In this document: positions 23,171-29,292 of the stretch, in pieces | Position numbering within the stretch: the first letter of the stretch is position 1 | Layout of the letters: every line of letters starts with the position of its first letter | IMG/VR virus record: IMGVR_UViG_3300009103_001101 | Location: 1 to 36,958 of that record | Reading direction: 5' to 3' (one strand) | Length of the DNA: 36,958 nt | DNA from: a virus | The notes under the pieces: generated by a model | The model's database searches: none | Seen by the model: only the letters and a program-made list of their open reading frames with translations | What the model was told of the DNA's origin: nothing | Made by a program: the position numbers and the translations under genes

Positions 23171-23670
23171 TGATTGAAATTGAAATCACGCAAAAAATGA
23201 AAGAGCGAGCTTGGCGTAAGGCTCGACAAATGGGTGAAATAAATAACTCGATTACAAAAGGCGACGGAAACATTGCTGGGTTTTTAGGGGAAGAAATCGC
23301 TAATAAAATAATTAAAGGTGACATCAACAACACCTATGATTATGATATCATAAAAAATGGTGTAACATACGATGTTAAAACCAAGCGTTGTACTAGCGAG
23401 CCTAAGCCTTACTACGAATGCTCTGTCGCCGCTTTTAACACTAAACAAAAATGTGACTATTATGTTTTTGTGAGAATAGAAAACCTAAAAGGCAAATGGA
23501 CCAGAGCTTGGGTTTTAGGTCTTTACGATAAAGAGAAATATTTTAAGGACGCAAAATTCTTGAAGAAGGGACAAACAGATGGCGACAATTATTTTAAAGT
23601 CAAGGCCAACTGTTATAATATGGAAATTTCAAAATTAAATTCTATGGAGTCACAATGCCCGCAGAATTAA
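23170..23670 (+). CDS. Putative PD-(D/E)XK phage endonuclease
   Basis: The 166-residue protein has a core compatible with a restriction-like fold: YDYDIIKNGVTYDVKTKRC supplies Asp and an Asp-Val-Lys strand (D-x-K), preceded by a helix containing FLGEEIANKII (candidate Glu). Downstream strands are CDYYVFVRIENLKGKW and RAWVLGLYDKEKYF. It resembles single-domain nucleases of large phages, but the target is unknown. It is directly coupled to the Cas4-like gene (TAATG), so the two may process the same DNA ends. A catalytically silent relative cannot be excluded. Confidence 0.6.
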   Translation: MIEIEITQKMKERAWRKARQMGEINNSITKGDGNIAGFLGEEIANKIIKGDINNTYDYDIIKNGVTYDVKTKRCTSEPKPYYECSVAAFNTKQKCDYYVFVRIENLKGKWTRAWVLGLYDKEKYFKDAKFLKKGQTDGDNYFKVKANCYNMEISKLNSMESQCPQN

Positions 23671-24563
23671 TAGACCTAAATCAAGAATTCCATCTTGGTA
23701 ATCGTTTTACACTAGAAACCGCAGAGCATCTGGCGGCAATACTAGATGAGCGATACAGGGTGGTGGTTAAATATGATTCACCCAGTTCACTTCCCTATTA
23801 TAAAGATAACAAACTAAACATTGTATTTGCAACCTCCAAAGAAACGCACGCCATACCAAACGAATTTTATAGAAAAGACGTGTTTGCTATATTTCAACAT
23901 TATTTTATGCTTGACAAATGGGGATATCCAATATTTAATCCACTAGTATATCCTCTACCCCTTGGTACTTTTAGAGATGTCAAAGTTGAAAATATTAAAC
24001 CGTTACCCGAAAGAAAATACGACTTTTGTTTTGTTGGCCAAATACCTCACACGGGAACTAGGGATTATTTTAAAAGAAACCTAGATGATTTAATGGAGAA
24101 AACAGGTGATAAGTTTAAATATTATGTTAAATTTACTGATGGCTTTTCTAGAGGTTTAGATCCAGAGGAGTATATAACAATTCTAGGTGACTCCAAATTG
24201 TCCCTGTGTCCACAGGGCGCAAATAGTCTTGAAACCTTTAGATTTTTTGAATCTATCATGATGGGAGCAATACCAGTCGTAGAAAGGCTTCCAAGGTTGT
24301 GGTATTATGAAACGGCTCCGAATTTTAATGTTAAATGGAGAGATATTGACTCTAACTTATCAAAAATTTTAAATTTTATACAAACGCCACACGTTCGCAA
24401 CGTTCTATATAAAATTGGCTACTATTGCAACGAGATAATGAACCCAATAAAACTAGCCGAACACCTCAAAGAAAAAATTGAAATTAGACTAAACAACATG
24501 CACCTACACCAAAGCGACATTGAAAAATTAAGGAAAGAGCTTAATGACTTGGATACCATTTAA
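23655..24563 (+). CDS. Exostosin-like glycosyltransferase
   Basis: The 302-residue protein has the same donor-site block as the gene at 16570: LSLCPQGANSLETFRFFESI followed by MMGAIPVVERLP. The central YDFCFVGQIPHTGTRDYF strand also fits exostosin-type GT-B enzymes. A C-terminal charged helix (EKIEIRLNNMHL, DIEKLRKELNDL) is added. It lies between a nuclease (16-base overlap) and the polymerase gene (20-base overlap), again inside the replication cluster. The acceptor is unknown: virion, cell-surface glycan and DNA are all possible. Confidence 0.68.
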   Translation: MPAELIDLNQEFHLGNRFTLETAEHLAAILDERYRVVVKYDSPSSLPYYKDNKLNIVFATSKETHAIPNEFYRKDVFAIFQHYFMLDKWGYPIFNPLVYPLPLGTFRDVKVENIKPLPERKYDFCFVGQIPHTGTRDYFKRNLDDLMEKTGDKFKYYVKFTDGFSRGLDPEEYITILGDSKLSLCPQGANSLETFRFFESIMMGAIPVVERLPRLWYYETAPNFNVKWRDIDSNLSKILNFIQTPHVRNVLYKIGYYCNEIMNPIKLAEHLKEKIEIRLNNMHLHQSDIEKLRKELNDLDTI

Positions 24564-26145
24564 TTGTAAAACACATTTTAGCTTGCTTAAGGCTTTCTCA
24601 AAAAGCGATAAACTAGCGCAAAAATGCAAAGAGTATGGTTACTCTTCTTGTGTTATTACGGATATTGAAACTGTTTCTGGCGCTATTAATTTCCACCAAG
24701 CCTGTCGAAAAAATGGTGTTAAGCCAATAATTGGATGCGATTTTGGCTCATACCTGATAATAGCAAAAAACAAAGAAGGCTGGCTTGATTTAATTAAAAC
24801 CGTATCTCATAGCGGGGTAGCAATATTTAAGGATCTGGCACAGAAAGGAAATCTTATATGCATAACAACAGAACCCCAAAAAGGATACAAAAAGATTTTT
24901 GGTAAAAATTATTTTTGTTATAACTATAAAAAACACAGTGTTTTCTACGTAACCCAAGACGAAGCAGAACCCCATAGGGTATTATTGTGTTCGGGCATGA
25001 AAACGACATTACCAAAAATTAGGTCTATGCTTAACAGGGGCGAACCCATAGATAATCAAGAATTTTTTGAATCAGACAATTTCTATTTGCCAAAACCAGA
25101 AGAAATTAAAGATTCTGAAGATGACATAAGGATGCTCAATAAAATCTCTGACATGTGTGAGGATTATGAGGTAACATCTAAACCTATGCTGCCAGAATTT
25201 AAGTGCCCGGAAGGTTTTGATGAGGATGAATATCTAACACAGCTTTGTCGAGATGGTTGGCGAAGTAGGTTGATGTCCTGTGATAAAATTAAAGATGAAA
25301 ACAAGAAAGACGAATATTTGCAAAGAATCAAAAAAGAGCTTGATGTTATTTTCAAAGCAGAGCTTTCTGGGTATTTTTTAATTGTGCAGGATATTGTTAA
25401 CCATGTTAAAAAGCGGGGATGGATTGCTGGGCCGGGGCGCGGTTCAGCCGCTGGATGTTTAGTTTCTTATCTGGTTGGCATAACTGAAGTGGACCCAATT
25501 CAATATGATCTGCTTTTTGAAAGATTTTACAATGAGGGGCGAAACACTGACGATCATGTTTCCCTGCCAGATATTGATGTCGATGTTCCAGCGGAATACC
25601 GAGACGAAGTAATAGACTACATTAAACAAAAATACAACTCAGAAAATGTTGCACAGATGGTCACATTTGGTAGGCTACAGGGTAGAGCAGCCCTAAAAGA
25701 AGTCCTCAGAATTAACGATGCTGTGTCATTTGCAGAAATGAATGAGATAACAAAGAGTATACCAAATGAAGCGGACATATCTGACCAGCTAGAACTTATG
25801 GATCATAGATCTATAATCAAGTGGTCACTGATAAACGACGCGAACTCTCTAAAGGAGTGGTGTACTATGGATAAAAACGATAATTTAGATGGGCCGCTAT
25901 CTTTGTTATTTGATCAGGCAATAAAAATAGAAGGCACAAATAAATCACAAGGCAAACACGCTGCTGGTGTTATTATTGCCAAAGAACCCCTAAAAAACAT
26001 ATGTCCCATGGCACTAGATAAAAATGGACAAACCATAGCGGCTTTTGAAATGAACGATCTAGAAAGTCAGGGTCACGTCAAATTTGACATACTTGGAATT
26101 GATTTACTTAGTAAGATAATGGATATTACAAATGAAGAAACATAA
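24544..26145 (+). CDS. DNA polymerase III alpha, N-terminal half (PHP and palm)
   Basis: The 533-residue protein holds the PHP domain (about residues 4-220), thumb/palm with GPGRGSAAGCLVSYLVG (297-312), catalytic LPDIDVDVP (Asp345, Asp347) and VKFDILGIDLL (Asp515). All three palm metal-binding aspartates are therefore present. The frame ends 18 residues after Asp515 at a point that is an ordinary inter-domain linker in E. coli DnaE, while the fingers and OB parts are encoded at 27417-28964. The PHP motifs are degenerate: where active PHP domains have His-x-His there is FNCKTHFSLL, and ITDIE replaces ITDH. It needs the C-terminal partner to polymerise DNA. Confidence 0.93.
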   Translation: MTWIPFNCKTHFSLLKAFSKSDKLAQKCKEYGYSSCVITDIETVSGAINFHQACRKNGVKPIIGCDFGSYLIIAKNKEGWLDLIKTVSHSGVAIFKDLAQKGNLICITTEPQKGYKKIFGKNYFCYNYKKHSVFYVTQDEAEPHRVLLCSGMKTTLPKIRSMLNRGEPIDNQEFFESDNFYLPKPEEIKDSEDDIRMLNKISDMCEDYEVTSKPMLPEFKCPEGFDEDEYLTQLCRDGWRSRLMSCDKIKDENKKDEYLQRIKKELDVIFKAELSGYFLIVQDIVNHVKKRGWIAGPGRGSAAGCLVSYLVGITEVDPIQYDLLFERFYNEGRNTDDHVSLPDIDVDVPAEYRDEVIDYIKQKYNSENVAQMVTFGRLQGRAALKEVLRINDAVSFAEMNEITKSIPNEADISDQLELMDHRSIIKWSLINDANSLKEWCTMDKNDNLDGPLSLLFDQAIKIEGTNKSQGKHAAGVIIAKEPLKNICPMALDKNGQTIAAFEMNDLESQGHVKFDILGIDLLSKIMDITNEET

Positions 26146-26371
26146 CACAACCACTTCTAAAGAAGACTATAAATCTGTTATATTTGCTGGATGCGCTATT
26201 GAGTCTAATGGTGTTTCTATTTGCAATTTAAATGATTTCAGTAAAGGACTAACCAGATATTCATCCAGATATCAGGTATGGTCAGACAAACACAGATGCT
26301 ATAAAATATATTATAATATAGATGAGGCTGTTAATAAATTTATTGAACTAAAAAATAGAGGCAAAATATGA
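26132..26371 (+). CDS. Small unknown protein between the polymerase halves
   Basis: A 79-residue product with SVIFAGCAIESNGVSICNLN, TRYSSRYQVWSDKHRCYKIY and EAVNKFIELKNRGKI. The last part reads as two or three beta strands followed by a helix. No family is recognised; it might be a DNA-binding fold or a replisome accessory. It overlaps the N-terminal polymerase half by 14 bases and the exonuclease by 4 (ATGA), so it is integrated in the operon rather than left over from an insertion. Confidence 0.5.
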   Translation: MKKHNTTTSKEDYKSVIFAGCAIESNGVSICNLNDFSKGLTRYSSRYQVWSDKHRCYKIYYNIDEAVNKFIELKNRGKI

Positions 26372-27060
26372 ATTATAGAGATATTATAGTATTCGACTTT
26401 GAAACGGGTGGCGCTAATCCGCATACGTGCCAACCAACCCAAATTGCCGCTGTGGCAATTCACGCAAGAAAACTGGAGATTCAACCCGGAGGTACATTTG
26501 ATAGCGAAATTAGACCAATTATAAACGATGATAAGGCCATAGAGGCTGGCGTTGCTCCGCTTGAGGATAAGGCTTTAGAAATCACCAGAAAGAACAGAAA
26601 GGATCTAGCCAAAGCACCACTACCAAAAACAGTATGGAAGAAATTTGCTAAGTTTTGTGACAAGTACAACTGGAAGGGCACAACATTTACAGCGCCTATT
26701 GCTGCTGGGTACAACATCAACGGATACGATATGCCAATTGTCGAGCGCATGTGTCAGCAATACGGACCAGTAGACGAGAAAAAGGGTTGTCAGAAGATAT
26801 TCAATCCCATTTTTACAATTGATATTATGCAACATATTTATTGTTGGTTTGAAAACAATCAGGATGTTAAGGGCTACAGCATGGATTACATGCGAGACTA
26901 TTTTGGAATGGGCCAAGACAGCAAGGATAATGCTCACGACGCACTGCAAGACGTTAAGGATACCGCGAATTTGATGATTAAGTTTATGAAGCTACAAAGA
27001 AGCTTATTGAAAAAAGTAAAATTTGAAAAGGCATTTGCAAATGGCGAATTGTACGTATAA
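26368..27060 (+). CDS. DnaQ-type DEDDh 3'-5' exonuclease
   Basis: The 230-residue exonuclease shows the three Exo motifs: IIVFDFETGG (Asp10, Glu12), AAGYNINGYDMPIV (Asp121) and AHDALQDVKD (His190, Asp195). These five residues are complete, so it should be active, giving a DEDDh proofreading enzyme like the epsilon subunit. It is encoded between the two halves of polymerase III alpha, whose PHP domain looks inactive. It lacks a recognisable beta-clamp peptide. It overlaps the HNH gene by 20 bases. Confidence 0.9.
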   Translation: MNYRDIIVFDFETGGANPHTCQPTQIAAVAIHARKLEIQPGGTFDSEIRPIINDDKAIEAGVAPLEDKALEITRKNRKDLAKAPLPKTVWKKFAKFCDKYNWKGTTFTAPIAAGYNINGYDMPIVERMCQQYGPVDEKKGCQKIFNPIFTIDIMQHIYCWFENNQDVKGYSMDYMRDYFGMGQDSKDNAHDALQDVKDTANLMIKFMKLQRSLLKKVKFEKAFANGELYV

Positions 27061-27424
27061 AACTTGTAGTAAATGCAAAAAAGAACTGCCTACAACATGC
27101 TTTAGTAAAAGGGGCGGGGAAAATTATTTGAGGACGGAATGTAAAGATTGCAATAAGTATTTAAGTAAAAAAAGAAAAGAGCTTCGGACCAAATATGGGC
27201 AACCGCCGGAAGATTACGAGTGTCCAATTTGTAAAAGAACAGCACCGGAAGTCTCTGGCGAGGGCAGCAAAAGAGCAGCACCCTTTGTCGTTGACCATTG
27301 CCACGTAACAGATGTTTTTAGAGGGTGGCTATGTCACAGGTGCAATAGAGGAATTGGGGCATTTGGTGACAGCGTTGAAGGTTTACAAAAAGCTATAAAC
27401 TATTTGAGTAAAAATAATGTTTGA
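27041..27424 (+). CDS. HNH endonuclease VII-family protein
   Basis: ATG 27041 is used; the frame can extend to a TTG at 27023, but that has no better ribosome site. The 127-residue protein has an N-terminal zinc-knuckle (CSKCKKEL ... CKDCNKY), then CPICKRT (Cys61, Cys64), the catalytic DHCH (85-88), GWLCHRCN (Cys98, Cys101, Asn102) and IGAFGDS. This is the T4 endonuclease VII-type HNH fold, which includes Holliday-junction resolvases and free-standing homing endonucleases. It is the last gene before the C-terminal polymerase half, overlapping it by 8 bases. It is a candidate agent of the split, or a junction resolvase. Confidence 0.85.
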   Translation: MANCTYKTCSKCKKELPTTCFSKRGGENYLRTECKDCNKYLSKKRKELRTKYGQPPEDYECPICKRTAPEVSGEGSKRAAPFVVDHCHVTDVFRGWLCHRCNRGIGAFGDSVEGLQKAINYLSKNNV

Positions 27425-28964
27425 TATTAATAATTTTGAAGATGAAGCGGTTTGGGATTTGATTTGTGAGGGGCGCACTAAGGGTGTTTTTCAGCTTGAA
27501 TCCCAACTTGGTAGATCTTGGGCCAAAAAAGTCAAGCCTAGAAATATTAATGATCTCGCCGCGCTTATTTCTTTGATCAGACCGGGGTGCTTGAAGGCTG
27601 TCACAGATGGTAAGTCTATGACGCAACACTATTGCGATAGAAAATCAAACAAAGATCCTGTAACATATCCCGATGAATCTCTTGAAGATATCTTATCTGA
27701 AACATATGGTGTTCTTGTGTACCAAGAACAGTCTATGAAAATAGTCCAGAAATTAGCAGATTTTGATTTGAAGGATGCCGATGCTTTGCGCAAGGCTATT
27801 GGTAAAAAGAAAGCTGGGCTAATGGAGGAAGTCAAAACCGCCTTCTTGTCTGGAACCAAAAAGAAGAATCTTATCACAGTAGAAGTTGCGGAAGAAATTT
27901 TCTCATGGATTGAAAAATCTAATCGGTACGCATTTAATAAATCACACGCCGTGTCTTATGCCATAAACGCATACTGGAGCGCTTATTGTAAATACCACAA
28001 GATGGTTCCTTTCTATGTGTCTTACTTAAATCATTCCGACCGGAAACCAGATTCCCAAAAAGAAATGAAAGAGCTAATTATTGATGCCAAGTTTTCAGAT
28101 ATTGAAGTATATCCTCCGCGATTAAAGAATATATATACAAACTTTACCCACAAGGGTGATAAGATTTATTTTGGAATCAATTATATCAAAAATGTTGGTC
28201 GCAAAGAATGTGAGAAAATAGAAGAAATTTCCTCTCAGGCTGACATTTCTACTTATAATTGGATGGATGTATTAACAAAAATTATCTATAAGGGTAGACT
28301 CAATAAGCGTGCGGTTATAGCTCTTATATCTGTTGGTGCTTTTAACGGGGAAAACAACACAAGAGATAGGGAGGAAATGCTATACGAGTTCGATAGCTGG
28401 AAAGACCTAACGGCTAGAGAGCAGGAGCACATCGCAAACATGGATAACTACGACAAAGATACGACACTCTCCGACTGTATAGAGGAAATGATAAATAATA
28501 TGAAAATTAACAGCCGTAGGCTTACAACTGTGGTTGATATTAAGCAAATACTAGATAATCCACCCCACGAACTAAAAGATAATATACCACTCATAGCCCA
28601 AAACGAAGAGAAATATATGAGCTGTGCGTTAACATGCAACAAAACTGATGGTTTTGATATGAATTTTTCTAGTTCTTTGTGCAAAGACATAGCAAAAGGC
28701 TCTATAACAGGGAAGGTAAGATTAGCGGCGCAAATTAACACTATTAGGTTATATAAAACAAAAAGAGGTAAAAATCCGGGTCAGCTAATGGCCTTTTTGT
28801 CTATCGAAGACAGTAGTGGTTCGTTAGACTCTATAACGATTTTTCCAGATTGCTATGACAAACATAAAGAATTACTTGTTGAAGATAACACCGTTTTATT
28901 GGTTGGCGAAGTTTCTAAAAAAGAAAACACTTCGATAATTGTGAACAAGGTTTCACAAATTTGA
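27417..28964 (+). CDS. DNA polymerase III alpha, C-terminal half (fingers, HhH, OB)
   Basis: The 515-residue protein starts where E. coli DnaE continues after the palm: FDINNFEDEAVWDLI, then GVFQLESQ (23-30), LISLIRPGCLKA, YGVLVYQEQSMKIVQKLADF, ADALRKAIGKKK, and RYAFNKSHAVSYAI (170-183). It goes on to a helix-hairpin-helix-like region (IKNVGRKECEKIEEI) and a C-terminal OB fold (about residues 425-512, GKVRLAAQINTIRLYKTKRG). No catalytic aspartate is needed in this half. It should bind the incoming nucleotide and DNA and assemble with the product of 24544-26145. SSB follows 10 bases later. Confidence 0.93.
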   Translation: MFDINNFEDEAVWDLICEGRTKGVFQLESQLGRSWAKKVKPRNINDLAALISLIRPGCLKAVTDGKSMTQHYCDRKSNKDPVTYPDESLEDILSETYGVLVYQEQSMKIVQKLADFDLKDADALRKAIGKKKAGLMEEVKTAFLSGTKKKNLITVEVAEEIFSWIEKSNRYAFNKSHAVSYAINAYWSAYCKYHKMVPFYVSYLNHSDRKPDSQKEMKELIIDAKFSDIEVYPPRLKNIYTNFTHKGDKIYFGINYIKNVGRKECEKIEEISSQADISTYNWMDVLTKIIYKGRLNKRAVIALISVGAFNGENNTRDREEMLYEFDSWKDLTAREQEHIANMDNYDKDTTLSDCIEEMINNMKINSRRLTTVVDIKQILDNPPHELKDNIPLIAQNEEKYMSCALTCNKTDGFDMNFSSSLCKDIAKGSITGKVRLAAQINTIRLYKTKRGKNPGQLMAFLSIEDSSGSLDSITIFPDCYDKHKELLVEDNTVLLVGEVSKKENTSIIVNKVSQI

Positions 28965-28974
28965 AAGGACTTAA

Positions 28975-29292
28975 ATGAATAGATGCCATTTCTTAGGAAA
29001 GCTGGTAACTGACCCAAATTTGACCACACCCTACTCCACCGATCTTGTAAATTTCACACTAGAGGTTGAAGAATACAGACGAGATAAAGATGGTGTTAAA
29101 AAACGTAGAACAGATCTACTAAATTTTGAAGCTTGGGACAGCGCGGCAACGACCATTCACAAATACGCCTCTAGGAATGATTTTCTGATTGTAGAAGCAA
29201 TAGCTAGAAATCCCCCTAGTAAAAAATGTGGAGAAGTGGTTTTTAGGGTTACTAATTTTAAAATTTTTCCACAAGAGTATAAAAGGTCTTAG
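28975..29292 (+). CDS. ssb: Single-stranded DNA-binding protein
   Basis: The 105-residue protein has the SSB OB-fold order: MNRCHFLGKLVTDPNL, VNFTLEVEEYRRDKDG, RTDLLNFEAWDSAATTIHKY, and VVFRVTNFKIF. Bacterial SSB usually has a disordered tail ending in DDDIPF, which recruits partner enzymes. Here the protein ends right after the OB fold with QEYKRS, so that interaction tail is absent. It lies just behind the polymerase, with AAAGGA upstream of its ATG. It would coat ssDNA at the fork and in recombination. Confidence 0.85.
   Translation: MNRCHFLGKLVTDPNLTTPYSTDLVNFTLEVEEYRRDKDGVKKRRTDLLNFEAWDSAATTIHKYASRNDFLIVEAIARNPPSKKCGEVVFRVTNFKIFPQEYKRS

Follow-up and report, generated by a model that had tools for sequence, protein, structure and literature searches.

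Among the 36,958 nucleotides of viral DNA that we analysed (IMG/VR record IMGVR_UViG_3300009103_001101, hereafter the window), the genes for an exonuclease and an HNH endonuclease lie between the two parts of a DNA polymerase gene. Which came first, the split or the endonuclease? A reading made from the sequence alone had offered two answers: either the HNH gene encodes a homing endonuclease whose invasion of the polymerase gene brought the others along, or the gene order was selected so that the exonuclease and both polymerase halves are translated together. It had placed both genes inside the split, where we also find them; in addition to these and the polymerase, a fourth gene, o79, lies inside the split (Table 1).

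Table 1. Features of the split polymerase operon in the window.
Feature	Position	Strand	Description	Evidence and remarks
polN	24544..26145	+	N-terminal polymerase half (PHP and palm), 533 aa	Pfam PF07733 (E=2e-75), PF02811; PDB DnaE match
o79	26132..26371	+	Small conserved protein	Usually between polN and exo; 39-member alignment
exo	26368..27060	+	DEDDh 3'-5' exonuclease (proofreading type), 230 aa	Pfam RNase_T (E=1e-13); PHROG 'DNA polymerase exonuclease subunit' (E=1e-22)
HNH	27041..27424	+	EndoVII-motif HNH endonuclease, putatively of homing type	ATG at 27041 the likelier start, alternative TTG at 27023; Pfam Endonuclease_7 (E=5e-15)
HNH/polC overlap	27417..27424	+	8 nt, ATGTTTGA	Most empty relatives have such an overlap directly between the end of exo and polC
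polC	27417..28964	+	C-terminal polymerase half (fingers, HhH and OB), 515 aa	Pfam PF17657 (E=8e-46), PF14579 (HHH_6), PF01336 (OB); PDB match
SSB-like gene	28975..29292	+	Conserved SSB-like protein, encoded next in the module	Pfam PF00436 (E=6e-9); conserved gene order

Positions 24544-28964 encode a family C (DnaE-type) polymerase as two genes, polN and polC. Their products align to consecutive stretches of one DnaE chain (PDB match), polN up to Taq residue ~626 and polC from ~650 onwards, and thus no domain was lost at the break. Comparison with the unsplit polymerase of a relative, L445 (..GVAILDKLMDIIPHLPEGCDIENLEDKATW..), puts the break in the palm-fingers linker, with almost nothing missing. 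The features of a family C enzyme are all present, as two chains: a palm with three catalytic aspartates (Asp343, Asp345 and Asp515 of polN, invariant among relatives), fingers, HhH and OB. In each of 20 records tested, a single DnaE palm gene was found and PolA was absent, which makes the split enzyme the probable replicase of these phages. Immediately upstream of polN (window 23655-24563) lies a glycosyltransferase-like gene, which some relatives have and which was undetected in others.

Inteins do occur in these genes of relatives, and an intron or an intein could in principle rejoin the halves into a single-chain polymerase. For the window this can almost be dismissed: the break gave no Rfam intron match, the ends of the polymerase halves carry no intein sequence, and the overlapping reading frames leave no room for either element. 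One Rfam match (SCARNA7) scored far under the gathering score and was dismissed as chance. Fractured genes with split inteins, polymerase genes among them, were reportedly described by Dassa et al. in 2009. Likely true cases are present in relatives L146, L191 and L285, whereas the split in the window has no intein halves. In L146:7315-10147 and L191:3530-6443, polC is broken again, with an intein N-half after ..NRYAFNK^C, then a free-standing endonuclease ORF (NUMOD3/DUF559) and then the rest of polC; this is a fractured gene whose split intein is a probable one. In L285:8315-13035, a probable split intein breaks the palm at GRG^C..SAAG and encloses an endonuclease ORF (weak TnsA-like match), and a PDDEXK (Cas4-like) nuclease of the same relative (L285:4044-6029) carries its own intein-like insertion. 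A distant split relative (L124:4165-14392) has three apparent inteins, two of them in polN and the third in polC, and its exo is flanked on either side by gene insertions of kilobase size.

The exonuclease carries all five DEDDh residues, as the sequence-only reading had stated. These residues (D10, E12, D121, H190 and D195, in ExoI-III) are invariant in a 13-member alignment reaching down to about 31% identity. A family C polymerase is also linked to a DEDDh exonuclease in the PolC of Gram-positive bacteria, where PHP contains the exonuclease as an inserted domain; in the window the exonuclease has a gene of its own, located between palm and fingers, and the polymerase is of the DnaE type. 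The sole cultured matches to the exonuclease (25%), in Bacteroides DAC phages, were set aside: exo there adjoins a terminase-like gene, and no polymerase half. The o79 protein, with a predicted a-b-b-b-b-a fold (model pLDDT 80), belongs to no known family, and the fold search returned no confident match (E at least 0.25 in the PDB and at least 0.03 among viral structures). L354, another split relative, lacks o79 and has a polN-exo gap of 17 nt; o79 is therefore not indispensable to the split. In the window, all neighbours overlap: polN and o79 by 14 nt, o79 and exo by 4 nt, exo and HNH by 20 nt (ATG start) or 38 nt (TTG start), and HNH and polC as given in Table 1.

To see how widespread the split is, IMG/VR was scanned with polN, polC and exo, yielding loci with identities as low as about 40%, on contigs of up to 244 kb. 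Removal of duplicates left 199 distinct split loci, a number that counts loci fetched and is no unbiased census. The exonuclease was inside the split in all 199, none having a split without it. Such recurrence places the arrangement far beyond chance, and its persistence at this depth of divergence supports the earlier view, drawn from the tight overlaps, that it is long settled. Exo and polC abut directly in 167 loci; an EndoVII HNH gene lies between them in 15 and another insert of at least 150 nt in 17 (other HNHs, methyltransferases, a sulfotransferase-like gene). The polN-exo gap exceeds 450 nt in 18 split loci. Sugar-modification and methyltransferase genes repeatedly occur at junctions within the split operon (L035:2817-5018; L031:2860-3672; L184:6647-7282; L090:3591-4899). 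Among the best-ranked INPHARED matches, no phage was closer than about 31% in polC, and the best-covering ones were unsplit; the literature gave no description of this split, an absence that is weak evidence. The phages that carry it form a large family, aquatic and uncultured.

What kind of enzyme is the HNH protein? The DHCH/RCN core noted earlier is indeed present, as CPIC-DHCH-R-CHRCN, and the pattern CxxC-DHxH-R-CxxCN is invariant in 16 homologues. The motif occupies residues 61-102 of 127, at the C-terminus, behind a Cys-rich CxxC..CxxC region. By sequence and by fold, the nearest solved structure is Hpy99I (TM 0.51 and E=1e-6 for the predicted model). The best-ranked cultured-phage relative, in Roseobacter phage CRP-738 (MZ892992.1 48000-48347), is 46% identical to the HNH of the window and annotated as endonuclease VII. 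F-CphI of cyanophage S-PM2 is the founding member of the DHHRN homing endonucleases, and homing enzymes with an EndoVII motif exist (PMC6083498). Like the HNH of the window, F-CphI has the CxxC-DHxH-R-CxxCN motif at its C-terminus, is free-standing and adjoins an important phage gene (PMC6083498). However, F-CphI is paired with a group I intron in psbA, whereas the window's gene has no intron, occupies an overlap between genes of a split replicase operon and encodes an enzyme of predicted activity.

The catalytic motif, the PHROG label (endonuclease VII) and a profile match to T4 gp49 would also suit an EndoVII-type Holliday-junction resolvase that reached this place through ordinary gene shuffling, without homing, and EndoVII-type HNH genes do include resolvases. 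Yet the HNH and T4 EndoVII have only the catalytic motif in common, and its position differs: C-terminal in the HNH as in F-CphI, but N-terminal in T4 EndoVII, where it starts at residue 23 of 157 and the catalytic domain is followed by a C-terminal region, a layout that the HNH lacks. Moreover, 11 of the 20 records, most of them 87-171 kb long (possibly fragments), had no EndoVII match, and the gene has repeatedly entered one exact site. A resolvase thus appears improbable.

The placement of the HNH gene is precise. Its start codon lies out of frame within the 3' end of exo and its stop overlaps the polC start, with both neighbours intact; the free-standing homing genes mobA and mobC of T4 likewise overlap their upstream gene, by 23-24 bp (PMC2988022). 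At empty junctions, exo mostly ends in TAYGTTTGA (or TAYGTTTAA), with the polC ATG or frame start inside it. At occupied loci, exo ends in TACGTA-TAA or similar, HNH starts at an ATG already present in the exo 3' end, and the 3' end of HNH recreates the ATGTTTGA overlap with polC. The distance from the exo stop to the HNH stop is 364 nt in 4/4 lineages (window, L358, L359 and L360/L354).

In the other three of these lineages, the HNH at the same junction is 85-89% identical to that of the window, compared with 58-72% for exo and 42-59% for polC. Synonymous divergence from the window (dS) is 0.50-0.67 for HNH and saturated for both flanking genes, and therefore the similarity of the HNH genes is independent of protein conservation; a dN/dS of 0.09-0.15 indicates purifying selection. 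Conversely, a near relative, L083, has an exo 94% identical to that of the window and an HNH of only 49% identity. Between the window and L354, DNA identity climbs sharply at the exo stop, to 83-93%, and drops as sharply to about 50% where polC starts. The HNH tree is too short for well-supported branches and the argument for mobility rests on pairwise identity and dS, which show that the HNH gene has moved horizontally into this one conserved site of otherwise divergent genomes. L354 (VFHP01000007.1, 152,655 bases) has a polymerase identical to that of the IMG/VR phage L360, yet it is binned in a SAR202 MAG, which may hint at the host or reflect a binning error.

Did the HNH gene nevertheless invade an intact polymerase gene, split it and bring in the exonuclease and o79? 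It is located within the split, and splitting of nrdA is documented in phage Aeh1 (PMC2988022). But relatives with the same split that lack this HNH at exo|polC, a case which the sequence-only reading had itself named as evidence against invasion, make up 184 of the 199 loci, mostly with exo abutting polC; the synonymous divergence of HNH is far below that of the split genes; and the gene lies at exo|polC, not at polN|o79. Such an invasion is thus very improbable, although an older, since-lost endonuclease may have been the original splitter. The most plausible reading of the HNH gene is that of a homing-type passenger in a two-piece replicase much older than itself; it neither split the polymerase nor brought the exonuclease. 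Of the invasion proposed earlier, the horizontally moving, homing-type endonuclease survives, and the entry into an intact polymerase gene with the others in tow does not.

A different view of the same junction is that exo|polC is a recombination hotspot for any cassette, with HNH as one cargo whose own nuclease activity is irrelevant. With 17 other inserts found there, such a hotspot could explain part of the pattern. However, polN|o79 and o79|exo hold inserts as well, no single type is as frequent at exo|polC as the EndoVII HNH, which is under purifying selection, and no co-transfer is visible in the flanks. We therefore regard a general hotspot as unlikely.

Unexpectedly, two relatives proved to be unsplit. 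L445 has one 1138-aa polymerase with exo just upstream, and in L285 the palm-fingers junction is unbroken, with exo and a methyltransferase upstream. L406 shows the order o79-exo-methyltransferase-polN, its sequence ending before the palm-fingers junction. The o79-exo block can thus occupy either of two positions. In the polymerase tree, the fused L445 and L285 are nested inside the split clade (branch 99/98; one change in 0/200 bootstrap trees), which, if true, means re-fusion or repeated splitting of the polymerase. In the AU test, a single split clade was not rejected (p=0.21; 0.08 with L285 alone), so that either the split or the fused state may be ancestral in these two. Tentatively, and at somewhat less than even chances, the o79-exo block may shuttle between a place upstream of an intact polymerase and the palm-fingers linker, the replicase having been split and then re-fused, or split repeatedly, with o79 possibly bridging the halves. 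Selection of the gene order for joint translation, the second earlier proposal, fits the conserved overlaps but is no strict rule: exo lies upstream of the unsplit polymerases, and foreign genes are repeatedly found between the parts.

Two known systems resemble the locus in part. Gene 43 of Aeromonas phages 25 and 44RR (43A/43B), with a seg homing endonuclease, also encodes a two-gene polymerase, and in phage 25 the homing gene possibly invaded an already split polymerase, whose halves co-purify and are active (PMC2988022). There, however, a family B polymerase is combined with a GIY-YIG endonuclease, whereas in the window a family C enzyme is split between palm and fingers, the exonuclease gene lies between, and the arrangement is conserved across a very diverse phage group. 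In Aeh1, as in the window, an HNH gene (mobE) lies inside an essential split gene, nrdA, whose parts reassemble (PMC2988022); in contrast to the HNH of the window, mobE made the split.

On this evidence, we consider it likely that the locus combines an older family C replicase in pieces with a later F-CphI-like homing endonuclease at the exo/polC overlap. The palm half, o79, the DEDDh exonuclease and the fingers half would be separate proteins expressed from a single operon with tight overlaps, and the polymerase halves presumably reassemble non-covalently, as their conservation suggests. The split far predates the HNH gene, which would have entered the exo/polC overlap later as a free-standing homing-type endonuclease with an EndoVII catalytic motif. 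To spread, the HNH protein would cut another phage at its conserved empty junction, presumably in a site-specific manner, and repair would copy the HNH gene in.

A main replicase in two pieces, without introns or inteins and conserved across a large and diverse phage group, provides a naturally occurring test of how far a family C polymerase tolerates division, and also of whether gene order recruits proofreading. The HNH gene offers a clear natural case in which a homing-type gene can be separated from an older split by synonymous divergence, and it corrects the intuitive account in which the nuclease produced the split.
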